In this document: positions 2,261-12,812 of the stretch, piece after piece
Layout: the number at the start of each line of letters is the position of its first letter
How positions within the stretch are numbered: position 1 is the stretch's first letter
Assembly: GCA_029553845.1 (NCBI GenBank)
Contig: JAKPKF010000207.1
Location: 1-22,001, forward strand
Direction of reading: 5' to 3'
Length of the DNA stretch: 22,001 nucleotides
Source: a bacterium
GTDB taxonomy: Bacteria > Patescibacteria > Dojkabacteria > SC72
Notes under the pieces: model-generated
Seen by the model: the letters and a program-made list of their open reading frames with translations, nothing else
Database searches by the model: none
Told to the model about the DNA's origin: nothing
Position numbers and translations under genes: made by a program

Positions 2261-2303
2261 ATTATAAGATGTGAACATTAGCGACACATTAAGAGAACAT
2301 TAG
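2261..2303 (-). promoter_or_regulatory. Leftward 11-bp-box promoter (three boxes)
   Basis: Read leftward: CTAATG (2303-2298), TTAATG (2292-2287) and CTAATG (2281-2276), starting 11 bp apart. A TATAAT -10 (complement 2261-2266) begins 15 bp after the start of the last box. It drives the gene at 2226 and those beyond. It mirrors the rightward copy at 2321-2363. Confidence 0.85.
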
Positions 2304-2320
2304 AAAATTGTCCCAAAATG

Positions 2321-2363
2321 CTAATGTTCTCTTAATGTGTCGCTAATGTTTGTATTCTATAAT
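2321..2363 (+). promoter_or_regulatory. Rightward 11-bp-box promoter (three boxes)
   Basis: Boxes start at 2321 (CTAATG), 2332 (TTAATG) and 2343 (CTAATG), with TATAAT at 2358-2363. Box spacing is 11 bp and last box to -10 is 15 bp, as in all other copies. It is placed to transcribe the candidate RNA at 2393-2544, the 39-residue ORF and the methyltransferase. Confidence 0.85.
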
Positions 2364-2392
2364 AAGAGAAACATAATATTAAAAGGAAGAAA

Positions 2393-2544
2393 GAGGGAGC
2401 ACTACGGTAGGAACGTGAGAGTATGCCCGGAGTTGGTGGGAACCGTAAGGCGCGTACGAGCCCTGAGTACAAAATCATCTAGGACTAAAAGCTCAATCAG
2501 GTGACAATTACCATGAGAACTGGGAAACAAATCCTGACTCCCTC
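2393..2544 (+). ncRNA. Candidate structured RNA or long structured leader, unknown family
   Basis: An approximately 150-base stretch with no coding potential and higher GC than its surroundings. It is enclosed by a perfect 7-bp closing stem (GAGGGAG 2393-2399 with CTCCCTC 2538-2544). Inside are TACGGT (2403-2408) paired with ACCGTA (2442-2447), a GTAC/GTAC hairpin (2454-2457/2467-2470), AGGA (2481-2484) with TCCT (2532-2535), and CTCA/GGT (from 2492) with ACC/TGAG (to 2517). It lies between the rightward promoter and the ribosome site of the next ORF, so it is either a discrete RNA or a cis-acting 5' leader. I do not recognise a riboswitch, intron or tmRNA signature. Confidence 0.5.
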
Positions 2545-2559
2545 ATAAAAAGGAGATGT

Positions 2560-2679
2560 ATGGAAAGAACAGTTGATATTCTTATACTTTTGGCTGTAAT
2601 AGGTCAAGCAGTCGCTAATACTATTATTTTAGTAATTCATATAAAGGAGAAAAGACGTGGACGAAGACGTAGAAGTTGA
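2560..2679 (+). CDS. 39-residue membrane peptide with strongly basic tail
   Basis: ATG at 2560 preceded by AAAAAGGAGATGT, a good ribosome site. The peptide has one hydrophobic helix at about residues 5-27 (DILILLAVIGQAVANTIILVI) and then a tail, KEKRRGRRRR, so it is probably a single-span inner-membrane protein with a cytoplasmic basic tail. The stop overlaps the methyltransferase start by 23 bp. The tail is encoded in the same bases as the methyltransferase ribosome site and first codons. The function is unknown. Confidence 0.6.
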   Translation: MERTVDILILLAVIGQAVANTIILVIHIKEKRRGRRRRS

Positions 2680-3682
2680 AGATTTTGTTCTGAAATTTGC
2701 TAAAAGACTTGATTCTTCAAAAATGGATTCTGAAGAATTCGCCAATGAACTGGAAGAAACTTTGAAAGAGAAATATCCAGAACTTTCTTACGATAGGAGA
2801 GCAGATTTGATTGCTATGTCATTGAACGAAAAGAATCGTTCTCTGAAACAACAAGTAACCAGACCACCAGAAGTAACTACTGGAGATTCAATTCAAAAAG
2901 ACCCAAGGTCATGGTCATATCCAAATACTGGTATCTTCCTATATCAGCAAGATAATATATCAGTTCTCAAAGAAATTCAACCTCAAAAGATAGATCTAAT
3001 ATATGCTGATATGATCTATGAGAATCTGGATTTTTCTTGGGTAGTCTGGGCTCTTCAAACTCTAAAAGATAATGGAGTTATTATTGTTCAAACGGATTAC
3101 CATACTTCTGCTCAGATGAAGCTCTGCCTAGACCGGCAAGGCCTTACATTTATTAATTGGGCAATCTATAAGCAGGAATGGGGAGGGACCTCAAAAAGAT
3201 TCTTTCCCAGGAAGCATGATGATATTCTAATCTATGGGAAGGGGAAAGACTATAAATTCTATCCCGATCGAATCCAGATCCCAAAGGCTACAGCAGGAAC
3301 AGCTCTTGATAAAAAGGGAACAGGTATGAAGACCCCTTGTGATGTGTTTGATGATCTAGGGAACTTTATGACCACGTCTCCTGAACGAGTTAAAGTCAAT
3401 GGGAAAAATGTTTCCTGGCAGAAACCTCTCAAACTGATGGATAGACTCCTTAGGCCTTTCACAGATATTGGAGATACTATTTTAGATCCCTTCTTGGGAA
3501 CGGGGACTACTGCTCTCTGGGCAGGCCAAAATAATAGAAACTTCATTGGGATTGAAAATTCTCCTGAGATATACTCTCTTGCAGTAAATCGTCTTGAGAA
3601 ATTCTTCCCTCGATTGATCAATCTTTCAGCATTCCCTGGGTCCTATTTAGGGTATTTTTATGGAGCATCCGATGAGAAGTGA
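2657..3682 (+). CDS. DNA methyltransferase, beta-class (N6-adenine/N4-cytosine), with altered catalytic motif
   Basis: 341 residues from a GTG start behind AAAGGAGAAAAGAC. It transfers methyl groups from S-adenosylmethionine to DNA, typically protecting phage DNA from host restriction. Evidence for the family: motif IV comes before motif I, as in beta-class enzymes. KIDLIYADMIYE lies at about residues 111-122 and the SAM-binding KPLKLMDR...DTILDPFLGTGTTALW at about 256-288. FPRKHDDILIYGKG (about 183-196) is also typical of this family. The odd point is that the catalytic DPPY/SPPY is DMIY (118-121), losing both prolines. The N-terminal 85 residues are helical, acidic and not part of the catalytic core. 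The gene shares its transcript with the candidate RNA and the membrane peptide. Confidence 0.88.
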   Translation: MDEDVEVEDFVLKFAKRLDSSKMDSEEFANELEETLKEKYPELSYDRRADLIAMSLNEKNRSLKQQVTRPPEVTTGDSIQKDPRSWSYPNTGIFLYQQDNISVLKEIQPQKIDLIYADMIYENLDFSWVVWALQTLKDNGVIIVQTDYHTSAQMKLCLDRQGLTFINWAIYKQEWGGTSKRFFPRKHDDILIYGKGKDYKFYPDRIQIPKATAGTALDKKGTGMKTPCDVFDDLGNFMTTSPERVKVNGKNVSWQKPLKLMDRLLRPFTDIGDTILDPFLGTGTTALWAGQNNRNFIGIENSPEIYSLAVNRLEKFFPRLINLSAFPGSYLGYFYGASDEK

Positions 3683-3872
3683 TTGGAAGTACCGAAAGTC
3701 TAAGGTTAAAGAGGAACCTCCTCAAGAGTTATCAGTCCGAGCTTCAATGTTCCCGGACTTTCCTCCCCCATCTCCCTTGAAAGTTATTATTATCGTTGGA
3801 GGGAGCATCCTTCTATCCTGGGGGCTTTTTAATATAGCCCTTGATATTCTCATCTTCCTATTTAGATTCTAA
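3660..3872 (+). CDS. Small membrane protein
   Basis: 70 residues. The first 40 are polar and proline-rich (EEPPQELSVRASMFPDFPPPSPL). Residues about 41-69 are one long hydrophobic segment (IIIVGGSILLSWGLFNIALDILIFLF), probably one membrane span. It overlaps the methyltransferase end by 23 bp. The ribosome site is weak at 3660, and the second ATG at 3672 is an alternative. No family recognised. Confidence 0.6.
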   Translation: MEHPMRSDWKYRKSKVKEEPPQELSVRASMFPDFPPPSPLKVIIIVGGSILLSWGLFNIALDILIFLFRF

Positions 3873-3922
3873 TCAAATTCTAATCCTCTCTTAATGTATC
3901 GCTAATGTTCCTATTCTATAAT
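3869..3922 (+). promoter_or_regulatory. 11-bp-box promoter (four boxes)
   Basis: Boxes start at 3869 (CTAATC), 3880 (CTAATC), 3891 (TTAATG) and 3902 (CTAATG). TATAAT is at 3917-3922, followed by the short leader ATAAAAGAAAAAGGAGG. No TTGACA-like element occurs 16-18 bp upstream of the -10. The first box overlaps the stop of the upstream gene. Confidence 0.88.
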
Positions 3923-3943
3923 AAAAGAAAAAGGAGGAATAGA

Positions 3944-4195
3944 ATGATAGAAGAAGTTGAAGCCAAGTTTTATGAAGCCTATCACAGCTCACCAAAGACT
4001 TTTGTTGAAAATATGACTAAGTTCATTAATACTTATCTAGACTCAGCAAATGTCCATGTTCAGGCTCTTCGAAGATTTGTTCATCTTTGTAGAGATAGTG
4101 ATAATACTCCTGGGATGATTTACGGGATGATTAGTTCAGCATTCCATAAAGCCATATCAAGTGATGGGATCAAGAAAGGAGACCCTAATGAGTAA
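3944..4195 (+). CDS. Hypothetical helical protein
   Basis: 83 residues from ATG 3944, chosen because AAAAAGGAGG ends 7 bases before it; upstream in-frame starts at 3905 would lie inside the promoter. The protein is probably all alpha-helical (EVEAKFYEAYHSSPKTFVEN..., VQALRRFVHLCRD). No family recognised. First gene of a seven-gene cluster (3944-5565) with overlaps or very short gaps. Confidence 0.72.
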   Translation: MIEEVEAKFYEAYHSSPKTFVENMTKFINTYLDSANVHVQALRRFVHLCRDSDNTPGMIYGMISSAFHKAISSDGIKKGDPNE

Positions 4196-4340
4196 TGACG
4201 AGAAGCTTAGAGACCTACTTGAAGAATTTGTTGAATCACTTGGACTTTCTGATAGTGATGAGTCTAAATTTGTCTGGAAAGTTGAGGATATGACTGTTCC
4301 AGAACTGAGTGATCTATTAGATAAGCATGGGTTAAAATAG
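4188..4340 (+). CDS. Small acidic hypothetical protein
   Basis: 50 residues from ATG 4188 (MSNDEKLRDLLEEFVESL...), ending LSDLLDKHGLK. It overlaps the preceding gene by 8 bp, and the AAAGGAG in that gene's end acts as its ribosome site. Acidic and helical. The C-terminal TVPELSDLLDKHGL resembles the small helical motif 'L..LL..G.' found in short nucleic-acid-associated proteins, but this is too weak for a call. Confidence 0.7.
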   Translation: MSNDEKLRDLLEEFVESLGLSDSDESKFVWKVEDMTVPELSDLLDKHGLK

Positions 4341-4348
4341 GAGGGATG

Positions 4349-4663
4349 ATGTCAGAGAAGAGATCTACTTTAGAATTATCAACACTCAAATCTCAATGGC
4401 GAAGTGATCCTATTTGGGATCTTGAATTAACCGAAGGGTTCGAAGCTCACTTTGAAGAACTTCGAGCATACCGGGAGTTTTGGGAAACTCAGTGGGTAAC
4501 GGATAGAGTAAACCGTCTCCAGAAAGCCGCTGATGATTGGAATTGTGCTCCAAAGACTGCTGAGTACCTTCTACACCTGGAAGAAAAGGTCACTGAGTTA
4601 GAGGGGACTGTCCTCTCGATACTAGATCGTCTATCAAACCTGGAGAGCAACCATGAAAAGTGA
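4349..4663 (+). CDS. Hypothetical protein with C-terminal coiled coil
   Basis: 104 residues. Two consecutive ATGs lie at 4346 and 4349; the second is chosen because the TAGGAGG ribosome site sits too close to the first. The N-terminal half is aromatic-rich (FEELRAYREFWETQWVTD). The C-terminal 30 residues form heptads (LLHLEEKVTELEGTVLSILDRLSNLE), so it is likely to oligomerise. Function unknown. Confidence 0.72.
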   Translation: MSEKRSTLELSTLKSQWRSDPIWDLELTEGFEAHFEELRAYREFWETQWVTDRVNRLQKAADDWNCAPKTAEYLLHLEEKVTELEGTVLSILDRLSNLESNHEK

Positions 4664-4853
4664 GTATACCGGATATGCTAAAGCAAGTGATGGTACCATA
4701 TGGTTATCAGATAACCCTAACGACCTAGAGGAATACCCCGGGAGAGTGTTTCCTCTACATCTAACATCCCTAGAAAATTTGGGAGACCTGTCTTCCCACC
4801 TTTCGAAGGGATGGGGACTAGTGGATTTAAGGAGAAAAAATACTAATGCCTAA
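4653..4853 (+). CDS. Hypothetical protein
   Basis: 66 residues, overlapping the previous gene by 11 bp. The N-terminus (YTGYAKASDGTIWLSDNPNDLEEYPG) looks like short beta strands. The Arg/Lys-rich end (DLRRKNTNA) overlaps the next start. The ribosome site is GGAGAGCAACC within the previous gene. No family recognised. Confidence 0.65.
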   Translation: MKSEYTGYAKASDGTIWLSDNPNDLEEYPGRVFPLHLTSLENLGDLSSHLSKGWGLVDLRRKNTNA

Positions 4854-5031
4854 GTATACTATTGTTTTTGAAGATGTTCGTATGTATCAGACTACTGTCT
4901 TCGCCCTCTCTGAAGAGGAAGCCGAAGAAGCCTTATCTGCAGGGAACCATGGGAAGCTAATCTCTCTACCAATCTGGGATCCTTCTCAAAGAATTCGGAT
5001 TACATCGGTAACTCAAGAGGAAGAAGAATGA
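4846..5031 (+). CDS. Hypothetical protein, short beta/alpha fold
   Basis: 61 residues (MPKYTIVFEDVRMYQTTVFALSEEEAEEAL...). The layout of a beta strand with YTIVFEDV, a second strand TTVFALSEEEAEEAL and a late strand IRITSV is that of small DpnD/PcfM-like or 'YxVxxxExxxxxxxVxAxsxeeA' proteins common in phages. The function is unknown. It ends EEEE and overlaps the next gene by ATGA. Confidence 0.7.
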   Translation: MPKYTIVFEDVRMYQTTVFALSEEEAEEALSAGNHGKLISLPIWDPSQRIRITSVTQEEEE

Positions 5032-5234
5032 CAGTCCCTCCTCGAAAACTCTTCTATAATGTAACTTTGAGAGTCTCAACTGAAGATTCTCAGTCCAAGG
5101 ATCCTCAAGAACTTCTAGAATCTCTGGACAGTACTCTCCACAATACTAATGGAGATCTCTCTAAGATTGGAGAGCTATTTGTAATCTTAGAATCCTGGTT
5201 GGTTGATCAGAAAAGTGGGAGGAAGATTGCCTAA
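5028..5234 (+). CDS. Hypothetical protein
   Basis: 68 residues beginning MTVPPRKLFYNVTLRV, coupled to the previous gene by an ATGA overlap with a GAGGAAGAAG ribosome site. It probably has a beta strand followed by a helical segment (DPQELLESLDSTLHN) and an amphipathic C-terminus. No family recognised. Confidence 0.68.
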   Translation: MTVPPRKLFYNVTLRVSTEDSQSKDPQELLESLDSTLHNTNGDLSKIGELFVILESWLVDQKSGRKIA

Positions 5235-5565
5235 ACTATTTACAAGATGGAATGTTGTTGAAGAAATTTGGGAGACTCATCTCCAAGAAGAGGTGAGTTT
5301 CATAGGAGAAGCTTTGATTCAAGAATACCTTCAGAGTATTCTTGATGAAGTTTCAAGGTTCAGACCTCATCGAGTTCTCTTATTTGATGTAAAAGGAAGA
5401 ACATGCCGGCAGATGAGGGATCAGAAAGGTGAGACTTACCTAGTTCTCAAAGATTCTCAGGTTCTCTACGGGAGTTTTATTATTGATACCTCTACCCAGA
5501 GATTCCAAAGATTTTACCAGGAAGAACAAGGATATCTCAATTGGAGGGAAATCTCAAAATTCTAA
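5227..5565 (+). CDS. Hypothetical protein, TTG start
   Basis: About 112 residues if translation begins at TTG 5227, which is preceded at four bases by GGGAGG and overlaps the previous stop. An in-frame TTG at 5203 is an alternative but lacks a ribosome site. The first half is helical (EEIWETHLQEEVSFIGEALIQEYLQSILDEVSRF). The second half is beta-rich (HRVLLFDVKGRTCRQM, YLVLKDSQVLYGSFIIDTST). It looks like a phage 'PD-like' beta sheet protein, but I cannot place it. It is the last gene of the cluster; its stop lies in the next promoter. Confidence 0.65.
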   Translation: MPKLFTRWNVVEEIWETHLQEEVSFIGEALIQEYLQSILDEVSRFRPHRVLLFDVKGRTCRQMRDQKGETYLVLKDSQVLYGSFIIDTSTQRFQRFYQEEQGYLNWREISKF

Positions 5566-5604
5566 TCTTCTCTTAATGTATCGCTAATCTTCATATCCTA
5601 TAAT
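5562..5604 (+). promoter_or_regulatory. 11-bp-box promoter (three boxes), long leader
   Basis: Boxes start at 5562 (CTAATC), 5573 (TTAATG) and 5584 (CTAATC), with TATAAT at 5599-5604. The expected fourth, upstream box would lie in the coding end of the preceding gene and is absent. The leader carries the longer form with CCAAATTTTAGATAGGAG. Confidence 0.85.
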
Positions 5605-5639
5605 AAGAATATAACCAAATTTTAGATAGGAGATTCAAC

Positions 5640-5867
5640 ATGCCCAAATTATGGATTCAAGATCTATCAGCGTCGGGAGATCATCAGGGAAAGACTGTCT
5701 GTGAGAATTGCTACAAGGCCTTCCCAAATGATGAAGTCAAGTATGGAGCTCGCTCCTGTATTGGTCCCTTCAAGCATTACTGTAAGGCTTGTGCAAGGAA
5801 ACTAGGGATCCTAGATATGGAAGAGTTTGATGCTGCCAATCAGAATTTCTTTGGAGTAGATTACTAG
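5640..5867 (+). CDS. Small zinc-finger-like protein
   Basis: 75 residues from ATG 5640 behind ATAGGAGATTCAAC. Cysteine pairs CENC (about 21-24) and CKAC (about 48-51), with an extra Cys and a His between (SCIGPFKHYC), suggest one bound zinc. Zinc-binding treble-clef or HNH-like remnants look like this, but no nuclease residues are visible. Function unknown. It is followed by a gene starting in its stop codon. Confidence 0.72.
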   Translation: MPKLWIQDLSASGDHQGKTVCENCYKAFPNDEVKYGARSCIGPFKHYCKACARKLGILDMEEFDAANQNFFGVDY

Positions 5868-6085
5868 TGACTCATTTCATTACTACTCGAGTCTGTCCCT
5901 GTTCTTCTACCCTAGAAGGAGTTCATGCAACTCAAGCAAGAATTACTTGGGACCCTGAAGTTCTGAAAGATTTCAAAACCCAAGAATTCGAGTTAATAAT
6001 ACAGAGTCACTCTACCCCACTTTCTAAAATCCGTGAACAGGTTCTCTGGAGAATGACTTATTCTTATCTAGGGAAGGATAACTAG
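5867..6085 (+). CDS. Hypothetical protein, GTG start
   Basis: 72 residues. GTG at 5867 overlaps the preceding TAG by one base, a typical coupled restart, although no strong ribosome site is present. N-terminal ITTRVCPCSSTLEGVHATQARITW looks beta-rich. The rest is amphipathic. No family recognised. Confidence 0.6.
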   Translation: MTHFITTRVCPCSSTLEGVHATQARITWDPEVLKDFKTQEFELIIQSHSTPLSKIREQVLWRMTYSYLGKDN

Positions 6086-6090
6086 ATTTT

Positions 6091-6144
6091 CTAATCAGAT
6101 TCTAATCTTCTCTTAATGTATCGCTAATGTTCTTATTCTATACT
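6091..6144 (+). promoter_or_regulatory. 11-bp-box promoter (four boxes), TATACT -10, long leader
   Basis: Boxes start at 6091, 6102, 6113 (TTAATG) and 6124 (CTAATG), with TATACT at 6139-6144. The leader contains ATAAATAAATTTTATTATAG before AAAGGAG. Confidence 0.87.
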
Positions 6145-6180
6145 AAAGATAAATAAATTTTATTATAGAAAGGAGATAGA

Positions 6181-6429
6181 ATGGCCCCAAAGAATACCCC
6201 TCTTCCCGCAAGACTCGTAGGAGAAACTCTTCAATCTAAGGGGATTTACCCAGATAGAATCTTTCGAAGAGGTTCCCGGTATATTGCTCGATTTATGTTC
6301 TTCTATACCCATGGAAAAACAGTTGAGTACTGGAGAAAGAAGTTTGAGAGTGCCGGGTTCAAAGTTATCACATGTTCAGAAGTTTGGAACCCTTGGCCTA
6401 AGGATTCTTATTGGGAAGTTCAATTTTAA
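6181..6429 (+). CDS. Hypothetical alpha/beta protein
   Basis: 82 residues (MAPKNTPLPARLVGETLQSKGIYPDRI...). Middle strand YIARFMFFYTHGKT, helix VEYWRKKFESAGF, strand KVITCSEVWNPWP and terminal strand SYWEVQF. This beta-alpha-beta layout with conserved-looking Trp/Pro is reminiscent of small phage ferredoxin-like proteins. Function unknown. First gene of a three-gene unit. Confidence 0.72.
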   Translation: MAPKNTPLPARLVGETLQSKGIYPDRIFRRGSRYIARFMFFYTHGKTVEYWRKKFESAGFKVITCSEVWNPWPKDSYWEVQF

Positions 6430-6443
6430 AAAGGAGAGCTATA

Positions 6444-6659
6444 ATGTCAGAAGATACCCGAGCTAAATACCTAAATACTTTTACCCAGAGAATCAAAGGA
6501 TTCTTAGAATCATCTATTAGTAAGAGTGAATTAGCTGTTCAGACTTATTCTGAAGAAGAATGGGGGGTTATTACCCTAGGATTCCAGGATAAAAGAACTG
6601 GGGAGTTTGTAAGAGTTACCATTGAGAAAGAGGATCCTGAAGAAAGTGAGAGGGAGTAA
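6444..6659 (+). CDS. Hypothetical acidic protein
   Basis: 71 residues from ATG 6444, chosen for the AAAAAGGAGAGCTATA ribosome site; the upstream in-frame TTG 6411 lies in the previous gene. Helical N-terminus (TRAKYLNTFTQRIKGFLESSI), beta hairpin (WGVITLGFQDKRTGEFVRVTIEKED) and a Glu-rich end. The stop and next start overlap as TAATG. Confidence 0.7.
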   Translation: MSEDTRAKYLNTFTQRIKGFLESSISKSELAVQTYSEEEWGVITLGFQDKRTGEFVRVTIEKEDPEESERE

Positions 6660-6856
6660 TGGAATACCGAGTTATCAAGGCTTCATTCAGACGGTCTGGG
6701 AAGACTAAATATGAACCCCAGAAGAGATCTTCTCCAGAAGATCCTTGGGTTCCCTTGATAGGTCCTTTCCAGAATTTTGATAGTATGGTTACAATGTGTA
6801 AGACCTATTATCAAGTAGACTTGAGGTTTGTTCCCGTAGAAGAAGTCAAACGCTAA
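6659..6856 (+). CDS. Hypothetical basic protein
   Basis: 65 residues (MEYRVIKASFRRSGKTKYEPQKRSS...), restarting at TAATG of the previous gene. A beta strand, then a basic segment, then WVPLIGPFQNFDSMVTMCKTYY and the final strand LRFVPVEEV. No family recognised. Its stop codon TAA is part of the first box of the next promoter. Confidence 0.68.
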   Translation: MEYRVIKASFRRSGKTKYEPQKRSSPEDPWVPLIGPFQNFDSMVTMCKTYYQVDLRFVPVEEVKR

Positions 6857-6906
6857 TCAAATTCTAATGTTCTCTTAATGTATCGCTAATGTTTATGGGG
6901 TATAAT
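6853..6906 (+). promoter_or_regulatory. 11-bp-box promoter (four boxes)
   Basis: Boxes start at 6853 (CTAATC), 6864 (CTAATG), 6875 (TTAATG) and 6886 (CTAATG). TATAAT is at 6901-6906, with the short leader AAAAGAAAAAGGAGG. Confidence 0.88.
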
Positions 6907-6925
6907 AAAAGAAAAAGGAGGTAAG

Positions 6926-7063
6926 ATGAACCAAGTACTTGATCTTAGAGTTAAAGTAGTCCCTACAAGAACGGGAGTAAACGTTCATGTATTTGATGCT
7001 ACTGGTAAGGAGATCCCTAGAGAGAAAGATCGGGATAGTGTAAACAGTTGGGAGGGAAGGTGA
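6926..7063 (+). CDS. Small hypothetical protein
   Basis: 45 residues from ATG 6926 behind AAAAAGGAGGTAAG: MNQVLDLRVKVVPTRTGVNV..., ending DSVNSWEGR. Two beta strands are likely. The excellent ribosome site and promoter argue that it is real despite its length. No family recognised. It may be the shortened remnant of a longer gene, since the next two genes have foreign-looking codon use. Confidence 0.68.
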   Translation: MNQVLDLRVKVVPTRTGVNVHVFDATGKEIPREKDRDSVNSWEGR

Positions 7064-7067
7064 ACTA

Positions 7068-7262
7068 ATGAGAATTTACAAAGCATGGGCAATCAATGAC
7101 CAGGGGGCAAGTTGTGAGGTTGGCGATGGAGGAAGTTTTTCATCTGTACGCATGGCAGAGGAAACCGCAAGGGATGAATTTGCTAAAGGTTGGAAAATTC
7201 ACATTATAGACAATGAAACAGGCGAAGAGGTGAAAGTATTCAAAATAAGGGGCAGAAAATGA
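7068..7262 (+). CDS. Hypothetical protein, atypical codon use
   Basis: 64 residues (MRIYKAWAINDQGASCEVGDGGSFSSV...), ribosome site GGGAGGGAAGGTGAACTA. Strand-helix-strand pattern with RMAEETARDEFAKGWKIHIIDNETGEEVKVFKI, like small phage proteins described only as hypothetical. Codons such as GCA, GGC, CGC and TGT are frequent here and rare in the neighbours, which suggests recent acquisition with the next gene. It overlaps that gene by ATGA. Confidence 0.7.
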   Translation: MRIYKAWAINDQGASCEVGDGGSFSSVRMAEETARDEFAKGWKIHIIDNETGEEVKVFKIRGRK

Positions 7263-7441
7263 AATACAGCTTAGATGATGTAATGGACATGACAGGCGCA
7301 ACCAATGGACAAGATTTTATTGATGCATTCAAAGGGAAAACAGAACAAGAGATTAAAGAGCTACTTGTTTACATGTTTCCAGGTGAACCAATAGAGCAAG
7401 AATTCATCCAGGAAATAAAAATTCATGCTAACAGCTTGTAA
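7259..7441 (+). CDS. Hypothetical protein, atypical codon use
   Basis: 60 residues (MKYSLDDVMDMTGATNGQDFIDAFKGKTEQEIKELLVYMF...), probably all helical and acidic. Coupled to the previous gene by ATGA. It shares that gene's composition, so the two appear to have come in together. No family recognised. Confidence 0.7.
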   Translation: MKYSLDDVMDMTGATNGQDFIDAFKGKTEQEIKELLVYMFPGEPIEQEFIQEIKIHANSL

Positions 7442-7712
7442 GGGTTTACCCCACACGCGAGATGAGCCTGATGGAGAGGAGGGAGTTTTTATCTACCTGG
7501 ATAATAAGTTTGACTCTTCAAGTTGGTCACCTCATCTACCTGAGACTAAGGAGTTTGACCTCTTTCTAGAGTTTGAACCTGGAAACCTCTTCAAGAGTCT
7601 CTTTGAGATCAACATGAGAATCCGAGTTAACGATTACGAACTCCCTGAAGGTCTTTCTGTAATCTGGGAGAACCAAGTCTTGAATCATCTTCTCGGAGTA
7701 TCCGTTTTCTAA
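7425..7712 (+). CDS. Hypothetical protein, start uncertain
   Basis: Up to 95 residues from ATG 7425, overlapping the previous gene by 17 bp. The first dozen residues (MLTACKGLPHTRDE) look unlike the rest, while the body (FIYLDNKFDSSSWSPHLPETKEFDLFLEF...) has the codon use of the local phage genes. It may be an older gene whose 5' end was replaced when the 7068-7441 pair was inserted. No family recognised. Confidence 0.6.
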   Translation: MLTACKGLPHTRDEPDGEEGVFIYLDNKFDSSSWSPHLPETKEFDLFLEFEPGNLFKSLFEINMRIRVNDYELPEGLSVIWENQVLNHLLGVSVF

Positions 7713-7762
7713 TCAAATTCTAATGTTCTCTTAATGTATCGCTAATGTTCTTATCCTATACT
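7709..7762 (+). promoter_or_regulatory. 11-bp-box promoter (four boxes), TATACT -10, long leader
   Basis: Boxes start at 7709, 7720, 7731 (TTAATG) and 7742 (CTAATG), with TATACT at 7757-7762. The leader has TATATAAATAAATTTTAG before AAAAAAGGAG. The first box overlaps the previous stop. Confidence 0.87.
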
Positions 7763-7803
7763 AAGTATATAAATAAATTTTAGTTAGAAAAAAGGAGAAT
7801 ATA

Positions 7804-8349
7804 ATGACAGAGAGTAAGCGAAATATTTTGGAGCAGGTTGAGGACAATTTTGATCTTGATAAACCTGCTCGGTATGGAGGACGCTCATACAACTTATTTT
7901 ACGATTGGTTCTGCAAAGATGAGAGCCTCCCTCGGAGAGGGGCTACCTTGGCCAAGAAATACCTAGCCGTACAGAAAGCCAATGCCCAGGCTAAGATTCC
8001 TTGGTTTGACCCCTCAAGAACTTATCTATTCTTCAAGAATAATGCTCCCATGGCCATCAATACTACTTATGATGACTTTCGGATTTGTGACCTGGAGTCA
8101 GGAGATGTTCTATTCACTATTGCTCCCTCTTATCCACGGGTAACTGGGACCAAACCAGTCAGAGATCAAATTGTCTGCATTCCTCAGATTTCCCGGAGAG
8201 CTGAAATGTGGGGAAGAGTTAATAACTTTGATGAACCTCTAGTGGAGGGGTCTTGGAAAGATATCCTGGAGTTCTTCAAGAAAGGGAGAGACTCCCTAAC
8301 TCCAAGAGAGATCGCAAGAAATCTCTTAGAAAATCCCGTGATTGGTTAG
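7804..8349 (+). CDS. Hypothetical protein, 181 residues
   Basis: The largest single gene of the small-gene region, from ATG 7804 behind AAAAAAGGAGAATATA. Its N-terminal third is helical (NILEQVEDNFDL..., LAKKYLAVQKANAQ). Residues about 70-125 are beta-rich (TYLFFKNNAPMAINTTYDDFRICDLESGDVLFTIAPSY). The C-terminal helix DSLTPREIARNLLENP ends it. I see no catalytic motif. It is the sole gene of its unit and is followed by two terminators, so it may be expressed strongly on its own. Confidence 0.78.
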   Translation: MTESKRNILEQVEDNFDLDKPARYGGRSYNLFYDWFCKDESLPRRGATLAKKYLAVQKANAQAKIPWFDPSRTYLFFKNNAPMAINTTYDDFRICDLESGDVLFTIAPSYPRVTGTKPVRDQIVCIPQISRRAEMWGRVNNFDEPLVEGSWKDILEFFKKGRDSLTPREIARNLLENPVIG

Positions 8350-8358
8350 ATTATAGCG

Positions 8359-8406
8359 CCCCGAGGAGGTTTTCCCCTATCCTTTTTCCCTCCTCGGGGA
8401 TTTTCT
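8359..8406 (+). terminator. Intrinsic terminator
   Basis: 11-bp GC-rich stem (8359-8369 with 8389-8399; CCCCGAGGAGG/CCTCCTCGGGG), 19-base pyrimidine-rich loop, followed by ATTTTCTT. It ends the 7804-8349 unit. Confidence 0.85.
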
Positions 8407-8432
8407 TCAAAAAGGACAAATGAGTAATAGAG

Positions 8433-8465
8433 ACCTGGGTCTGAAAATAGGCCCAGGTTTTTCTT
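8433..8465 (+). terminator. Second intrinsic terminator
   Basis: Stem ACCTGGG (8433-8439) with CCCAGGT (8452-8458), followed by TTTTCTTT. It is a backup to the terminator 50 bases upstream and insulates the next promoter. Confidence 0.8.
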
Positions 8466-8479
8466 TGACCTCCAATCCT

Positions 8480-8533
8480 CTAATCAAATTCTAATCCTCT
8501 CTTAATGTATCGCTAATGTTGATATCTTATACT
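8480..8533 (+). promoter_or_regulatory. 11-bp-box promoter (four boxes), TATACT -10, long leader
   Basis: Boxes start at 8480, 8491, 8502 (TTAATG) and 8513 (CTAATG), with TATACT at 8528-8533. The leader is nearly identical to that of the 7709 copy. Confidence 0.88.
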
Positions 8534-8575
8534 AGGTATATAAATAAATTTTAGTTTAGAAAAAGGAGGACTAAA

Positions 8576-8815
8576 ATGAACATGACCTTAGATGAAGTAA
8601 TTGAGAAACTCCAGAAGATCCGTGAAAGAACTCCTGGATGGACTCCGGTTAGAATACTGGATACCAATACCCGAGTTTTTGATATTGAAGAAATTCAAGT
8701 GGAGCCTAGTGATAGGATCATCCATGAAATCCTTCTCTACCAAAAGGGATGGAGTACCCCATTGAAGAGATTAGTAAAGAAATCCAAGGACCCTCACTGG
8801 CTAGTGGATGTTTAG
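8576..8815 (+). CDS. Hypothetical protein
   Basis: 79 residues from ATG 8576 (AAAAAGGAGG ends 7 bases upstream): MNMTLDEVIEKLQKIRERTPGWTPVRI.... The pattern 'TLDEVIEKLQKIRERTPGWTPVRIL...' recalls the many small phage proteins with 'L..LL..hp.d..V' N-termini. The rest has a beta strand IIHEILLYQKGW and a basic end. Function unknown. Single-gene unit. Confidence 0.73.
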   Translation: MNMTLDEVIEKLQKIRERTPGWTPVRILDTNTRVFDIEEIQVEPSDRIIHEILLYQKGWSTPLKRLVKKSKDPHWLVDV

Positions 8816-8819
8816 TCCT

Positions 8820-8873
8820 CTAATCAAATTCTAATCTTCTCTTAATGTATCGCTAATGTTGATACCCTATAAT
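8820..8873 (+). promoter_or_regulatory. 11-bp-box promoter (four boxes)
   Basis: Boxes start at 8820, 8831, 8842 (TTAATG) and 8853 (CTAATG). TATAAT is at 8868-8873, with the short leader AAAAGAAAAAGGAGG. Confidence 0.88.
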
Positions 8874-8894
8874 AAAAGAAAAAGGAGGAATAAA

Positions 8895-9305
8895 ATGTTA
8901 CACTTTTCAGATGGTATCTCAATTGATACTTCAGGAAGATACCGGGTTAGAACTCTTCCGGATGGAAGGTATATGGTTGGACATGGGATGATGATCCCTA
9001 CTAATTCCATAGAGGAAGAAGCCAAGTTATTCCATGAAGAGTTAATCGATGAGTTTATGGCCTTCCTTAAAAAGACTCTTGAGGAAACTCCAGAATTCAA
9101 GGGAGGATTCAAAGTTATTAGAACCTCCGGAGAAGAGTTTTTAGATATTGAGGAAAAAGCCTGGCCGGTAACCTATAGAATCCATGGTTTCCAGATTATC
9201 GAGGAGGGTATAGGTCTGGAGTGGGGGGATAATATTGAACCTCCCATTCACCATCCTACCTACCGGTTGAGACTCCAATTAGAGGAATGGTTAGAGAATT
9301 GGTAA
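8895..9305 (+). CDS. Hypothetical protein
   Basis: 136 residues from ATG 8895, fixed by AAAAAGGAGGAATAAA. N-terminal beta region (GISIDTSGRYRVRTLPDGRYMVGHG), central helix (EEEAKLFHEELIDEFMAFLKKTLEE), beta strands (FKVIRTSGEEFLDIEEKAWPVTYRIHGFQII) and a C-terminal amphipathic helix (YRLRLQLEEWLENW). No family recognised. Single-gene unit. Confidence 0.75.
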   Translation: MLHFSDGISIDTSGRYRVRTLPDGRYMVGHGMMIPTNSIEEEAKLFHEELIDEFMAFLKKTLEETPEFKGGFKVIRTSGEEFLDIEEKAWPVTYRIHGFQIIEEGIGLEWGDNIEPPIHHPTYRLRLQLEEWLENW

Positions 9306-9309
9306 AATT

Positions 9310-9352
9310 CTAATCTTCTCTTAATGTCTCGCTAATGTTCATATCCTATAAT
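9310..9352 (+). promoter_or_regulatory. 11-bp-box promoter (three boxes)
   Basis: Boxes start at 9310 (CTAATC), 9321 (TTAATG) and 9332 (CTAATG), with TATAAT at 9347-9352. The upstream box is absent because the previous gene ends there. Confidence 0.86.
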
Positions 9353-9392
9353 AAAAGAAAAGGATATAGAGAGTTTTACAAAGGAGTAAATC

Positions 9393-9545
9393 ATGAAAAC
9401 CTATCCAGAAAAAGCCCTAAGCTCCCTGGGAGTAATATTCATCCTAGGAATTTTGATCATAGGGTACCTTCTCTTCACATCCCTGGGAGGAGACTCGGAG
9501 GGAATCCTATCCTTCCTAAAATCCCTACTTCTAATCAAATTCTAA
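9393..9545 (+). CDS. 50-residue membrane protein
   Basis: ATG 9393 follows ACAAAGGAGTAAATC. One strong hydrophobic helix at about residues 11-30 (SLGVIFILGILIIGYLLFTS), then a short polar turn and a second amphipathic/hydrophobic segment (ILSFLKSLLLIKF). It is probably a small inner-membrane protein with one or two spans. The last codons are the first boxes of the next promoter (boxes at 9531 and 9542), so coding and control DNA overlap. No family recognised. Confidence 0.72.
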   Translation: MKTYPEKALSSLGVIFILGILIIGYLLFTSLGGDSEGILSFLKSLLLIKF

Positions 9546-9584
9546 TCCTCTCTTAACCTATCGCTAAGGATTACTTCCTATAAT
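9531..9584 (+). promoter_or_regulatory. 11-bp-box promoter (four boxes), TTAACC/CTAAGG variant
   Basis: Boxes start at 9531 (CTAATC), 9542 (CTAATC), 9553 (TTAACC) and 9564 (CTAAGG), with TATAAT at 9579-9584. The spacing rule is kept while the last two boxes change their sixth and neighbouring bases. Confidence 0.85.
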
Positions 9585-9605
9585 AAAAGAAAAAGGAGTA
9601 ATAAA

Positions 9606-9794
9606 ATGTCCGAAAAATTAGTAGCCATAGTCCAAAAGAAGGGGAGTGACCGGGTTGAAGTGATCTCTAGGATCTCGGTATTCGTAGTCCGTGATGGAGT
9701 TCTTATCCTTGTTCTTGATGGGAGTGATGGGAGGGTAGAGGATGTAACTTCCATCCCAATGGAGGATGTTTTCAGTATTGGTATTATCCCCTAG
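9606..9794 (+). CDS. Small beta-rich hypothetical protein
   Basis: 62 residues from ATG 9606 (AAAAAGGAGTAATAAA): MSEKLVAIVQKKGSDRVEVISRISVFVVRDGVLILVLDG.... Almost entirely beta strands with turns, like a small barrel (Sm- or SH3-like). No membrane span: the hydrophobic runs are broken by charged residues. Function unknown. Confidence 0.7.
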   Translation: MSEKLVAIVQKKGSDRVEVISRISVFVVRDGVLILVLDGSDGRVEDVTSIPMEDVFSIGIIP

Positions 9795-9805
9795 AACCGA
9801 GTAAA

Positions 9806-9837
9806 TAGGCCCCATGGAATTTCTTACCCGGGGCCTA
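9806..9837 (+). terminator. Hairpin, probable terminator
   Basis: TAGGCCCC (9806-9813) pairs with GGGGCCTA (9830-9837), loop 16 bases, just after the 9606-9794 gene. No T run follows, so it may act as a transcript 3' stabiliser or a weak terminator. Confidence 0.55.
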
Positions 9838-9865
9838 AGATTGGCTCAAAATCCTCCAGAATCCT

Positions 9866-9919
9866 CTAATCAGATTCTAATGTTCTCTTAATGTGTCGCT
9901 AATGTTCCCATCCTATAAT
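9866..9919 (+). promoter_or_regulatory. 11-bp-box promoter (four boxes), longest leader
   Basis: Boxes start at 9866, 9877, 9888 (TTAATG) and 9899 (CTAATG), with TATAAT at 9914-9919. About 60 bases of A-rich leader follow before AAAAAAGGAG. Confidence 0.87.
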
Positions 9920-9984
9920 AAAAATATAAATAAATTAGGAACCTTAATAACCTAATATTCAACCACCAAAAAAGGAGAAATAAA

Positions 9985-10383
9985 ATGGCACGCAGAAAAT
10001 CTTCAAAAAAGGAAATTATTGACCAAGTAGAGGACCCAATTGAGGTCCAGGAAGAACCAAAGGAAGAAATTCCCCAGGAAGAACCAAAGGAAGAAATTCT
10101 AGAGGAAACCCCAGAATTAACCCCTAAGGGAGAAACCATTTTCACTTTTACCCGGGAATTCACGGTAAAAATCAAAGTAATGACCGAGGCCGAAATTGCC
10201 AAAGAGATGGAGACCTGGAGTGAGAAAGAAACCCTTGGACTCATCCAATATCGGGAAAAGAGAGAAGCCGAAGTTCTAAGAATTTGGGGAGGACCCGGAG
10301 TCCGGAAATCCCAAATTCTCCTCCCCAATGGAGAGGTCAGGAAAGTCTGGTATTACGAAAAATATGGTTGGAGTGAGGCATAA
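9985..10383 (+). CDS. Hypothetical protein with acidic Pro/Glu/Lys linker and C-terminal GYW-type domain
   Basis: 132 residues. Basic start (MARRKSSKKEI), then a tandem 8-residue repeat QEEPKEEI-type at about 21-38. Next are FTREFTVKIKVMTEAEIAKEMETW and a C-terminal segment REAEVLRIWGG...QILLPNGEVRKVWYYEKYGW. That last segment matches the C-terminus of the gene at 12878 (EAKILRTW...VQLPDGSTTKWKSSRAPEWWGW), so the two share a domain. Function unknown; the linker suggests a flexible tether. Single-gene unit followed by a hairpin. Confidence 0.75.
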   Translation: MARRKSSKKEIIDQVEDPIEVQEEPKEEIPQEEPKEEILEETPELTPKGETIFTFTREFTVKIKVMTEAEIAKEMETWSEKETLGLIQYREKREAEVLRIWGGPGVRKSQILLPNGEVRKVWYYEKYGWSEA

Positions 10384-10399
10384 CAATTGAATAAACCAA

Positions 10400-10432
10400 A
10401 AAGAGGATAAGAAATAAAACCTTATCCTCTTT
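10400..10432 (+). terminator. Hairpin, probable terminator
   Basis: 12-bp perfect stem (10400-10411 with 10421-10432; AAAGAGGATAAG/CTTATCCTCTTT), 9-base loop, right after the 9985-10383 gene. The downstream strand has only TTTGGGAGTT, so termination depends on the T-rich end of the stem. Confidence 0.65.
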
Positions 10433-10482
10433 GGGAGTTAAAAAGAAAAGGAATTTTCTCTGGGTACCCCGGACTCAATCCT

Positions 10483-10536
10483 CTAATCTAATTCTAATCT
10501 TCTCTTAACCTTTCGCTAAGGTTGATCTCTTATAAT
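10483..10536 (+). promoter_or_regulatory. 11-bp-box promoter (four boxes), TTAACC/CTAAGG variant
   Basis: Boxes start at 10483 (CTAATC), 10494 (CTAATC), 10505 (TTAACC) and 10516 (CTAAGG). TATAAT is at 10531-10536, with the short leader AAAAGAAAAAGGAG. Confidence 0.86.
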
Positions 10537-10557
10537 AAAAGAAAAAGGAGAATAAAA

Positions 10558-10692
10558 ATGAAAGAAAAATTCCAAATCAAAATTGAGGTAGAGGTGGAAA
10601 TGGAACCGGGTTCCGATGTGTGGGAGGAAATGTCCAAAATGGTTGAAATGATCCAGAAAACCCCTCTGAACCAAAATATAAAGGAAGGATAG
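10558..10692 (+). CDS. Small acidic hypothetical protein
   Basis: 44 residues from ATG 10558 behind AAAAAGGAGAATAAAA: MKEKFQIKIEVEVEMEPGSD... ending NQNIKEG. A short beta segment of alternating charged and hydrophobic residues, then a helix (VWEEMSKMVEMIQK). The start resembles that of the next rightward gene (MKKVIFEVEIWLGDDE), so the two may be distant copies. Confidence 0.65.
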   Translation: MKEKFQIKIEVEVEMEPGSDVWEEMSKMVEMIQKTPLNQNIKEG

Positions 10693-10732
10693 AGAGGAGG
10701 CCGGAGGAGGGAGAAGGTGGATTTAGAGAGTA

Positions 10733-10760
10733 AATAGGATAGGGATTTCTCTATCCTATT
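10733..10760. terminator. Hairpin between convergent transcripts
   Basis: 10-bp stem AATAGGATAG (10733-10742) with CTATCCTATT (10751-10760), loop 8. It is placed downstream of the 10558-10692 gene and, from the other side, about 55 bases downstream of the leftward promoter at 10815. It can serve both directions. Confidence 0.6.
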
Positions 10761-10814
10761 CCTTTGGCGAGTTTTATGGTTATGAGAAAAATCTCCCACC
10801 AGGGGTCTAAATTA

Positions 10815-10868
10815 ATTATAAGGGGTGAAGGTTAGCGAGAGGTTAAGAGAGGATTAGAATTAGGTTAG
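10815..10868 (-). promoter_or_regulatory. Leftward 11-bp-box promoter with no gene downstream
   Basis: Read leftward: CTAACC (box end 10868), CTAATC (10857), TTAACC (10846) and CTAACC (10835). TATAAT (complement 10815-10820) begins 15 bp after the start of the last box. All spacing rules hold. There is no open frame with a ribosome site before the hairpin at 10733-10760, so the product would be an approximately 75-base RNA, or the promoter has lost its gene. Confidence 0.75.
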
Positions 10869-10874
10869 AAAATT

Positions 10875-10917
10875 CTAATCCTCTCTTAATATGTCGCTAA
10901 TGTTCATAAGGTATAAT
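10875..10917 (+). promoter_or_regulatory. 11-bp-box promoter (three boxes), divergent partner of 10815
   Basis: Boxes start at 10875 (CTAATC), 10886 (TTAATA) and 10897 (CTAATG), with TATAAT at 10912-10917. It forms with 10815-10868 a second divergent pair like 2261-2363. Confidence 0.84.
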
Positions 10918-10950
10918 AAAAGAAAAGGATGGAAAATTAGGAGGAGTGAA

Positions 10951-11163
10951 ATGAAAAAGGTAATTTTTGAGGTAGAAATTTGGTTGGGAGATGATGAAAA
11001 TTTGGAAGAGGAAATTGGATTTGAAATTTTTGGTGGGGAAGGTAGGGGGTTAGGAAAGGGGAGGATTTTTGAGGAAGGAGAAATTTTAGGAGGGAGAATT
11101 ATTGGAGAGGATGGAAAAGAGGAAGGAAAATTTAATGGGGCCGGGTATATAAGAAAAAATTAG
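10951..11163 (+). CDS. Low-complexity Gly/Glu-rich protein
   Basis: 70 residues from ATG 10951 with TTAGGAGGAGTGAA before it. Composition is dominated by G, E, I, K and R (FEIFGGEGRGLGKGRIFEEGEILGGRIIGEDGK), encoded by an almost pure purine strand (GGA, GAA, AAA codons). A repeated 'GGRII/GKGRIF' pattern hints at a short beta solenoid or repeat sheet. No family recognised. The coding sequence may have been shaped by base-composition pressure. Promoter, ribosome site and terminator (11174-11208) all support expression. Confidence 0.65.
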   Translation: MKKVIFEVEIWLGDDENLEEEIGFEIFGGEGRGLGKGRIFEEGEILGGRIIGEDGKEEGKFNGAGYIRKN

Positions 11164-11173
11164 AGGAGGGAGT

Positions 11174-11208
11174 AAATAAGAGAGAAAAATTTTCTCTCTT
11201 ATTTTTTT
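11174..11208. terminator. Intrinsic terminator, effective in both directions
   Basis: 13-bp stem (11174-11186 with 11192-11204) of AAATAAGAGAGAA type, 5-base A/T loop, then TTTT. It ends the 10951-11163 unit rightward and would also stop a leftward transcript from 11247. Confidence 0.78.
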
Positions 11209-11246
11209 GGTGGAAATTTGGATAGGAATAGGGGTAATTATAAATA

Positions 11247-11300
11247 ATTTTAAGGTGTGAGTATTAGCGAAAGGTTAAGAGAGTATTAGAGTTTGATTAG
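11247..11300 (-). promoter_or_regulatory. Leftward 11-bp-box promoter with weak -10 and no gene
   Basis: Read leftward: CTAATC (11300), CTAATA (11289), TTAACC (11278) and CTAATA (11267), then TAAAAT (complement 11247-11252) at the usual 15-bp distance. Only about 35 bases separate it from the terminator at 11174-11208, so no protein could be made. Confidence 0.65.
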
Positions 11301-11394
11301 AATTTCCCTGGGGTGGTGGAAATGGAAAAGTTGGGAGAGGGGTAGAGTGAGGAGGGTTTGGATAATTTCCCTCCTCTCTCTCACCCAACCTTTC

Positions 11395-11443
11395 CTTAGC
11401 GACAGGTTAAGAGAAGATTAGAATTTGATTAGAATTAGATTAG
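11395..11443 (-). promoter_or_regulatory. Box array without -10 (decayed or non-promoter copy)
   Basis: Five in-phase leftward boxes at 11439, 11428, 11417, 11406 and 11395 (ATTAG, ATTAG, ATTAG, GTTAA, CTTAG on the + strand). The expected -10 position (11379-11384) reads TCTCAC, so no promoter remains. Confidence 0.55.
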
Positions 11444-11449
11444 AATTTT

Positions 11450-11668
11450 CTAATCAAAACTCTAACCTTCTCTTAACCTTCTCTTAACCTTCTTAACTTT
11501 TCAAATTCCCTCTCCTCAAACCCCTTCTTTTTACCCTCTCTCTCCCAATTATATTACTAGGATAATTATTACCTTAATCCCTCTCTCCCTTTTCTCTCTT
11601 CCTCTTTTTGGTCCTATTTTTCTAATCAAACTCTAATCTTCTTTTAACCTTCTCTTAACCTTTTTAAC
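11450..11668 (+). repeat. Two decayed rightward box arrays, part of a tandem duplication
   Basis: Array A: boxes at 11450, 11462, 11473 and 11484, then 11493 (out of phase). Array B: 11622, 11633, 11644 and 11655, then 11664 (out of phase). Both end in multiple TTAAC boxes, lack CTAATG and have no TATAAT 15 bp on. They are followed by matching sequence, including the exact repeat at 11545-11578 and 11739-11772. Confidence 0.6.
11545..11578 (+). repeat. 34-base exact repeat, copy 1
   Basis: Identical to 11739-11772, 194 bases downstream. Contains AATTAT...ATAATT inverted arms and a near-palindromic GGATAATTATTACC. Flanks are similar but diverged, so a unit of about 190 bases was duplicated. 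Confidence 0.75.
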
Positions 11669-11738
11669 TTTTCCACTTTTCAATCCCAACCTCTCCATTT
11701 CCTCTCCTTTTATTTTCCTTCTTTTTACCCTCTAATTA

Positions 11739-11772
11739 CCAATTATATTACTAGGATAATTATTACCTTAAT
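11739..11772 (+). repeat. 34-base exact repeat, copy 2
   Basis: Second copy of the 11545-11578 element. It precedes the promoter at 11815 that is used by the 11908 gene. Confidence 0.75.
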
Positions 11773-11814
11773 TTATTTCTCACCTTTCTCTATTCCTCTT
11801 TTTAATCCAATTTT

Positions 11815-11868
11815 CTAATCTGATTCTAATCTGATTCTAATCCTCTCTTAACCTTCGAACCTTATAAT
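11815..11868 (+). promoter_or_regulatory. 11-bp-box promoter, re-registered variant
   Basis: Boxes start at 11815, 11826 and 11837 (all CTAATC) and 11848 (TTAACC), with TATAAT at 11863-11868. The usual CTAATG last box is missing, yet four boxes remain and the last is still 15 bp from the -10. Number and phase seem to matter more than the exact last box. Confidence 0.75.
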
Positions 11869-11907
11869 AAAAATATGAAAACTACCAATTTTATGGAGGC
11901 AAAAGAA

Positions 11908-12362: not shown

Positions 12363-12673
12363 ACCACCTCTCTCCTCTCACCCTCTCTCCCACTAGGACG
12401 GTCTACTCTCACACTCTTCCCTCTCTCAACCCTTCCCAAATACTTTACTACTCTATTTCCTACCTGAGAGATCACGATAACTTCAATCTTCCCTACCCAA
12501 TTAGGTAACTGTTTTAACTGTTGAATTCAACTATTAGTTTTACCTCCTTTTATCCTTCTCACGACAATCCTAATAGTTGAACCTAATAGTTAAAACAATC
12601 AAACTCACACCGTTTTCTCACCCCCAAAACCCACCCCAGTCTCCCTCTGAAACCTAATAGTTGAATTAGTTGA

Positions 12674-12704
12674 AGTCTCACGTATACGTAGTATACGTGA
12701 GACT
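12674..12704. repeat. 14-bp palindrome with GTA centre
   Basis: Arms 12674-12687 (AGTCTCACGTATAC) and 12691-12704 are perfectly complementary around GTA. The inner TATACGTAGTATA equals the inner part of the 1415-1453 hairpin, while the outer arms differ but remain paired. Confidence 0.75.
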
Positions 12705-12739
12705 GACCAAACTATTATTCAACTATTAGTGAAGACTTC

Positions 12740-12751
12740 ACCTAATTAGGT
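12740..12751. repeat. 12-bp palindrome ACCTAATTAGGT
   Basis: Perfect palindrome ACCTAATTAGGT with a half-site (CCAATTAGGTAACT) at about 12498. It is adjacent to a GTGAAG/CTTCAC palindrome (12729-12741). Probable operator-type site. Confidence 0.55.
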
Positions 12752-12812
12752 AATAGTTGAATAATAGTTGAAATTCCCTCCAAACTCCCTCCAAATTGAT
12801 ACCTCTAGGGGG

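Follow-up and report, generated by a model that had tools for sequence, protein, structure and literature searches.

Seventeen phage promoters of one design, probably answering to a host response regulator of the OmpR/PhoB family

Background

The housekeeping polymerase of the host is generally taken to transcribe the early genes of a phage at once, and the strong early promoters of T4 and SPO1, many near-identical copies of which each head a cassette of small early genes, use -35 elements and are not known to have tandem activator boxes. Here we describe a series of 17 promoters which likewise head gene cassettes in many near-identical copies, but differ from those of T4 and SPO1 in having tandem boxes and no -35 element. 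The series lies in a 22,001-bp stretch of DNA (contig JAKPKF010000207.1 of assembly GCA_029553845.1, positions 1 to 22,001; hereafter the window), a phage fragment in which a methylase gene and a run of small genes are followed by terminase, Mu-type portal, protease-like and capsid genes.

The host regulators of the closest described phage promoters are PhoB and CtrA, the latter of which we take to be a member of the OmpR family. Control of phage promoters by a host response regulator is already in print for both (PMC9437464, PMC10976474). In phages of Alphaproteobacteria, sites of the form TTAA-N7-TTAA are located in terminal repeats or in gaps before small genes of unknown function, and binding and regulation by CtrA have been shown (PMC9437464). 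The window and its relatives resemble these phages in a host response regulator (here a probable one) and in half-sites 11 bp apart that are concentrated before small genes of unknown function, TTAA in form in two of the relatives but mostly CTAA in the window. They differ in that three to seven TTAAT or CTAAT boxes are docked on TATAAT, with 17 such promoters in less than 10 kb of the window. In cyanophages, phage genes stand under the host PhoB; of the 14 genes induced, seven show a putative box, though not always a bound one (PMC10976474). A phosphate regulator of the host acting on phage promoters through a Pho box (PyTTAAPyPyT/A) would be the shared trait, and the uniformity of the promoter series the distinguishing one.

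Among bacterial promoters, the PmrA box of Klebsiella pbgP, CTTAAT-N5-CCTAAG (PMC3973317), compares with CTTAAT-N5-GCTAAT in the core of the window promoters, and a model has been presented in which PmrA presents region 4 of the sigma factor (PMC4660055). PmrA/BasR promoters differ from those described here in their two half-sites, in serving chromosomal genes and in their occurrence in Gammaproteobacteria. In the literature on phage promoters and host regulators we recognised nothing on PmrA- or CusR-like boxes in phages, within a search that left most subscription papers outside. As far as can be told, the uniform series of 17 promoters with three or four boxes (up to seven in the viral contig G001, see below), the strict docking at 15 bp, the class of the boxes and their recurrence in distant phages are new.

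Results

A motif scan confirms the promoter series between positions 2261 and 11868 of the window, where 17 promoters of one design are found, 14 on the plus and three on the minus strand, each with three or four boxes of the form [CT]TAA[TCG]. The boxes follow each other at 11-bp steps and the last box starts 15 bp before the start of the -10 element in 17 of 17 copies, exactly as proposed in a preliminary description of the sequence. The -10 elements, described there as TATAAT or TATACT, are of these two kinds in 16 copies (13 and three, respectively), but the minus-strand copy at 11247-11300 has TAAAAT. A promoter was counted if it had at most one mismatch to TATAAT or TATACT and at least two boxes in register. 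With up to two mismatches in the -10 element the scan gives 20 rows, of which 17 were kept; two of the excluded rows start an array one box too soon (6133, 7751), and the third is an undocked chain (11443, minus strand). None of the 17 copies has a -35 element, because the match to TTGACA at spacers of 15-19 never exceeds three of six positions and is two or three everywhere, which bears out the earlier statement that a sigma70 -35 is missing. OmpR/PhoB-type promoters are distinguished by tandem head-to-tail half-sites about 10-11 bp apart, and by half-sites that replace the -35 element at a fixed distance from the -10; both traits are present throughout the series, and the 15-bp spacing is common to the pst promoters of Bacillota and to arnB of Escherichia coli.

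A chance origin of the promoter series is excluded. Chains of at least three phased [CT]TAA[TCG] boxes were seen 20 times, compared with a mean of 0.02 and a largest value of 1 in 200 dinucleotide shuffles, and chains of at least four were seen 14 times, compared with none in the same number of shuffles. Likewise, three YTAAY boxes followed by TATAMT give 14 exact matches in the window and none in 100 shuffles. The first base is C in 46 of the 63 boxes and T in 17. The core regarded as conserved in the preliminary description, TTAATGTATCGCTAATGTT, is exact at only six places in the window and is present within two mismatches at 12.

The series opens with a divergent pair of three-box promoters with TATAAT, one at 2261-2303 on the minus strand, which would drive the left-hand minus genes, and one at 2321-2363 on the plus strand with the methylase gene downstream. 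This pair forms a long inverted repeat (2274-2350) because both arrays hold nearly identical boxes. On the plus strand there follow promoters of four boxes with TATAAT at 3869-3922, 6853-6906, 8820-8873, 9531-9584, 9866-9919 and 10483-10536 (those at 9531 and 10483 including TTAACC and CTAAG boxes), of four boxes with TATACT at 6091-6144, 7709-7762 (gene 7804-8349) and 8480-8533, and of three boxes with TATAAT at 5562-5604 (gene 5640-5867), 9310-9352 and 10875-10917. The last one, at 11815-11868, has four boxes and TATAAT, and a gene starts at 11908, 45 bp after the start of the -10. A start codon with a ribosome site follows within about 260 bp after 15 of the 17 promoters. The earlier description of one promoter per one to seven tiny genes needs correction at two minus-strand copies, both of four boxes, namely 10815-10868 (TATAAT), which has no gene with a ribosome site within that distance, and the promoter-like copy at 11247-11300, for which no gene was found. 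In the window scans no arrays occur past 11868, where the late genes are situated.

Three box chains without a docked -10 lie within 11395-11666 (starts 11443 on the minus, 11462 and 11622 on the plus strand). In the surrounding region 11264-11871, copies of a 98-nt unit recur at 11523 and 11717 (86%) alongside decayed box arrays, so that the region resembles a graveyard of promoter copies.

The promoters recur in other phages. A search of IMG/VR for three boxes and TATAMT at the fixed distances returned 64 stretches, many of which are single and may be due to chance and several of which have other box words; a four-box pattern with a loose -10 returned 78, most of the new ones again with other box words. 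Two contigs stand out: 3300033143_006887 (G001, 40.8 kb), with 12 docked promoters of four to seven boxes, 11 of them among small genes between 23.7 and 30.3 kb, and 3300033143_006496 (G002, 39.3 kb), with ten docked promoters of three or four boxes, one of which has TACAAT. Their boxes are mostly TTAAT[CG], and TTAA-N7-TTAA clusters precede small genes in both, whereas the boxes of the window are mostly CTAA. Between G001 and the window, identity amounts to 46% over 424 amino acids in the portal, 29% in the protease-like protein and 50% in a 54-amino-acid stretch of a small head-region protein.

The linkage between array and gene can be followed at the gene for a 75-amino-acid (aa), probably early protein (5640-5867, plus strand), the four cysteines of which are conserved in two relatives. 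A search with this protein and two relatives led to four IMG/VR contigs that encode a relative, at 27-32% identity to the window protein. In all four, CTAATCT-type boxes in register, with a -10 element (TATACT or TATTAT) at 15 bp, stand directly upstream; since two of the loci (L417 and L418) are identical in protein and promoter, they represent three distinct cases. Three of the four contigs had already been matched by the promoter pattern; the array at this gene in 3300031707_000026 had not.

The regulator is not visible in the window, as the preliminary description had stated. It had also proposed a search for an OmpR/PhoB-like gene elsewhere in the phage; the winged-helix domain Trans_reg_C was absent from 13 viral records (12 obtained by the array pattern and one terminase relative) and the receiver domain from six, with control genomes matched in both cases, although these records, like the window, may be fragments in which a missing match does not prove absence.

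In bacterial genomes, where our search was centred on one phylum, Bacillota, the three-box pattern derived from the phage, sought irrespective of gene context, occurs at 27 places in 21 of 249 genomes, and its reversed control at none. Of 25 loci retrieved, 22 contributed a downstream protein to the domain scan (L236 and L248 have no open reading frame, and L252 was left aside). The next gene is a pst gene at 15 of the 25 (PstS eight, PstC three, PstB four, all above curated cut-offs), although independent cases are fewer than 15 because the loci include sets from closely related genomes (L239-L241, L258/L259). One further locus is followed by an OmpR-family regulator (best YycF, then PhoB) and one by a phosphonate-binding-like protein, both below cut-offs; the remaining five proteins comprise a PHP-domain, an HtrA-like and a VanW-like protein and two without a family. 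As a pst gene comes next at most loci, the geometry is that of the pst promoters of Bacillota, in which, however, the boxes are TTAACA-like, unlike those of the phage.

A phage-like box (TTAAT[CG]T, with C or G at base 6) was found by a strict search at eight places in eight of 398 Bacillota genomes (control two) and, with a loose -10 element, at 16 places in 14 of 299 (control seven), together 20 loci. An OmpR-family regulator gene is next at six of these, downstream at L326, L327 and L337 and divergent at L321, L322 and L338, which amounts to about four independent cases, as L321 is closely paired with L322 and L326 with L327. L332 and L333 each have a small frame next, and about 500 bp beyond it, in the same orientation, a regulator. 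For the regulators of L326 and L327 the best scores are those of RppA and of TIGR01387, a heavy-metal family, below curated cut-offs; those of L321, L337 and L338 are 47-55% identical to that of L326 in alignment, and that of L322 was assigned by eye. Inspection by eye showed no pst gene beside any of the 20 loci. With four regulators as a profile, 30 loci were fetched from 199 genomes, in which the gene start could be placed at 20 and not at ten; seven of the 20 clade members, including the six best-scoring, have phased boxes upstream, and two of these seven (L348, L351), with less phage-like boxes, had not been found via the pattern. In E. coli, arnB, presumably a target of BasR/PmrA, has TTAAG and TTAAT boxes at an 11-bp step, with TAAAAT docked at 15 bp, and eptA has the same pair with a poor -10 there.

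The bases of the last box distinguish between these classes. At base 6, C or G stands in 16 of the 17 promoters of the window, in 22 of 22 of G001 and G002, and in seven of eight beside regulator genes, but in only two of 15 pst promoters, 13 of which have A. At base 7, T is present in 15, 22, eight and two of these promoters, respectively. When base 6 is compared with the pst promoters, the Fisher p is 5e-6 with the window set and 2e-8 with that of G001 and G002, the latter calculated with 23 rows, one too many. The regulator set comprises ten rows, eight beside a regulator gene and two elsewhere in L343, and its comparison includes close pairs and mostly loci sought with C or G at base 6. 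The box sequence of the pst genes is thus not that of the phage, although the reference is Bacillota only and may differ from the Pho box of the host. By these counts the phage sites would seem nearer to CusR/CopR/RppA/PmrA-type sites than to Bacillota Pho sites.

Several further observations were made in the course of these searches. G002 (L150 12981-17786) has 26 tRNA genes and, by eye, an RtcB-like protein. IMG/VR contig 3300026484_000053 (193.7 kb; L093, L113, L120, L127) carries four arrays like TTAATACTACT ... TTAATATTAAT, docked at 15 bp, and is possibly another phage group of the same design. Recurrent arrays of the TTAACATTAGA type, which may be cyanophage-like Pho boxes, stand before TATATTG in L275, L282, L297, L304 and L311 (IMG/VR), and the frames behind them are tiny. 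The exact core was found in no viral contig and in two genome contigs, both taken as chance; one of them, L001, has no TATAAT at 15 bp. The 4.3-kb contig L134, which has a terminase-like stretch, was matched by the pattern itself and has other box words.

Other features of the window

The regulated block includes a DNA methylase gene (2657-3682, plus strand), assigned by domain scan to N6_N4_Mtase (PF01555). The late genes comprise the terminase large subunit (14655-16196, plus), with no arrays upstream, and the Mu-type portal (16187-17902, plus), many relatives of which carry PF06074. Two perfect palindromes, which are operator- or origin-like, flank the block at 1415-1453 and 12674-12704, with arms of 18 and 14 nt, respectively, and 3-nt loops. 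Direct and inverted repeats are densely packed around CCTAATAGTTGAA / ATTCAACTATTAG at 12495-12772, where the small-gene block gives way to the late genes, and are possibly an origin or control region. The window has no tRNA genes, and Rfam gave 19 matches up to E 1, all under curated scores and mostly of microRNA models at inverted repeats. No DNA similarity to named phages was found for 5500-10500, and relatives of the terminase, capsid, portal and band-7 proteins are too scattered to point to a host; a Desulforudis metagenome-assembled genome is among 120 listed portal relatives.

Discussion

The block at 2.3-12.3 kb is probably a phage regulon of small, early genes, and we consider it likely that it is driven by a response regulator of the OmpR/PhoB family supplied by the host. 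The OmpR/PhoB-type reading of the preliminary description gains support from the pst genes at 15 of 25 loci, the regulator neighbours at six of 20, the arnB promoter and the other phages. The host RNA polymerase would transcribe each cassette from a promoter without a -35 element, the place of which is taken by three or four half-sites in tandem at intervals of one helical turn, where a winged-helix response regulator would bind. The phosphorylated regulator would line up head to tail along the boxes, and the unit next to the -10 would contact region 4 of sigma in place of the -35; with the last half-site 15 bp before the -10, a bound regulator can hold sigma region 4 at that position. Transcription of the small-gene cassettes would then be switched on jointly by the host signal. 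Judged by the box sequences (TTAAT[CG]TT, CTAAT[CG]), the regulator may most resemble the CusR/CopR/RppA/PmrA-like clade, a placement that we regard as tentative.

Several observations weigh against this interpretation. While the boxes are kept at the 75-aa gene in all four relatives found, none of 42 homologues of gene 7804-8349 (28-44% identity) has a docked promoter, and one of them (L391) has a phased pair without a -10. Among 80 terminase relatives kept of 179 found, none has a three-box chain, and only two of 74 portal relatives, G001 itself and L225, have docked arrays; loci of at least 10 kb make up 41 of the 80 and 43 of the 74, and many of the shorter ones may not reach the early region. 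The relaxed search for phage-like boxes yielded 16 places compared with seven in its control, so that much of it may be background. The base match at the CusR/RppA-like set is partly circular, as the phage-like box was the search key; the gene neighbourhood of that set is not. We interpret the promoters, which track neither structural lineage nor every gene family, as seemingly acquired in particular phage groups, and this would fit a dependence on a particular host regulator.

Within the host-regulator reading, the regulator could be that of phosphate (PhoB, PhoP or SphR), in which case the arrays would be Pho boxes that fire under phosphate limitation. The pst loci of Bacillota share the geometry, one of the 20 phage-like-box loci (L330) precedes, by eye, a gene for a phosphate-permease-like protein (PiT), cyanophage genes under host PhoB are in print, and the cyanobacterial Pho box accepts CTTAATCT of G001 and G002 (PMC10976474). 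That the arrays are simply Pho boxes was our first idea, which was lowered after the comparison of base 6; together with a domain scan of 15 distinct window proteins that revealed no phosphate gene, this comparison makes a phosphate regulator rather unlikely. An alphaproteobacterial host with CtrA as regulator, as in low-positional-entropy phages, would account for the spacing of the G001/G002 boxes, which equals TTAA-N7-TTAA, and in CtrA phages, too, sites are kept upstream of small genes without a known function (PMC9437464). The prevalence of C as first base of the window boxes argues against it, as does phiCbK, the one phage of this kind analysed: of three paired TTAA sites on the plus strand of its first 16 kb, one is followed at 15 bp by TATGGT but none by TATAAT, and none is docked on the minus strand; we regard CtrA as improbable.

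Alternatively, the activator could be encoded by the phage, with another fold, and lie outside the sequenced part or have escaped recognition, as in a classical early-to-middle switch. The window is a fragment with the regulator gene out of view, and G001 and G002 share, by eye, a helix-turn-helix-like protein (191 and 199 aa). However, the window, G001 and G010-G012 share the geometry although these phages are so different, and it also serves bacteria at genes of their own, which renders a phage activator unlikely. Last, the arrays might be iterons or recombination repeats instead of promoters, a reading suggested by the clustering of chains without a -10 at 11.39-11.66 kb beside other repeats. 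It is very improbable given the docking of 17 copies on a -10, the genes with ribosome sites behind 15 of them, and the retention of the array with its gene in other phages.

If a host response regulator drives the block, the promoters of which all lack -35 elements and would need an activator, the start of infection would depend on the signalling state of the host. Possibly, several unrelated phage lineages run a whole host-takeover block from promoters that answer a two-component system of the host, for metal, envelope or phosphate stress; a large set of identical cassettes of promoter and gene, each movable independently, would then let the host's sensing of its environment gate or pace the infection. 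In metagenomes, the promoter design would also serve as a sequence signature for tracing phages that are wired to a response regulator, beyond the cases of CtrA and PhoB.

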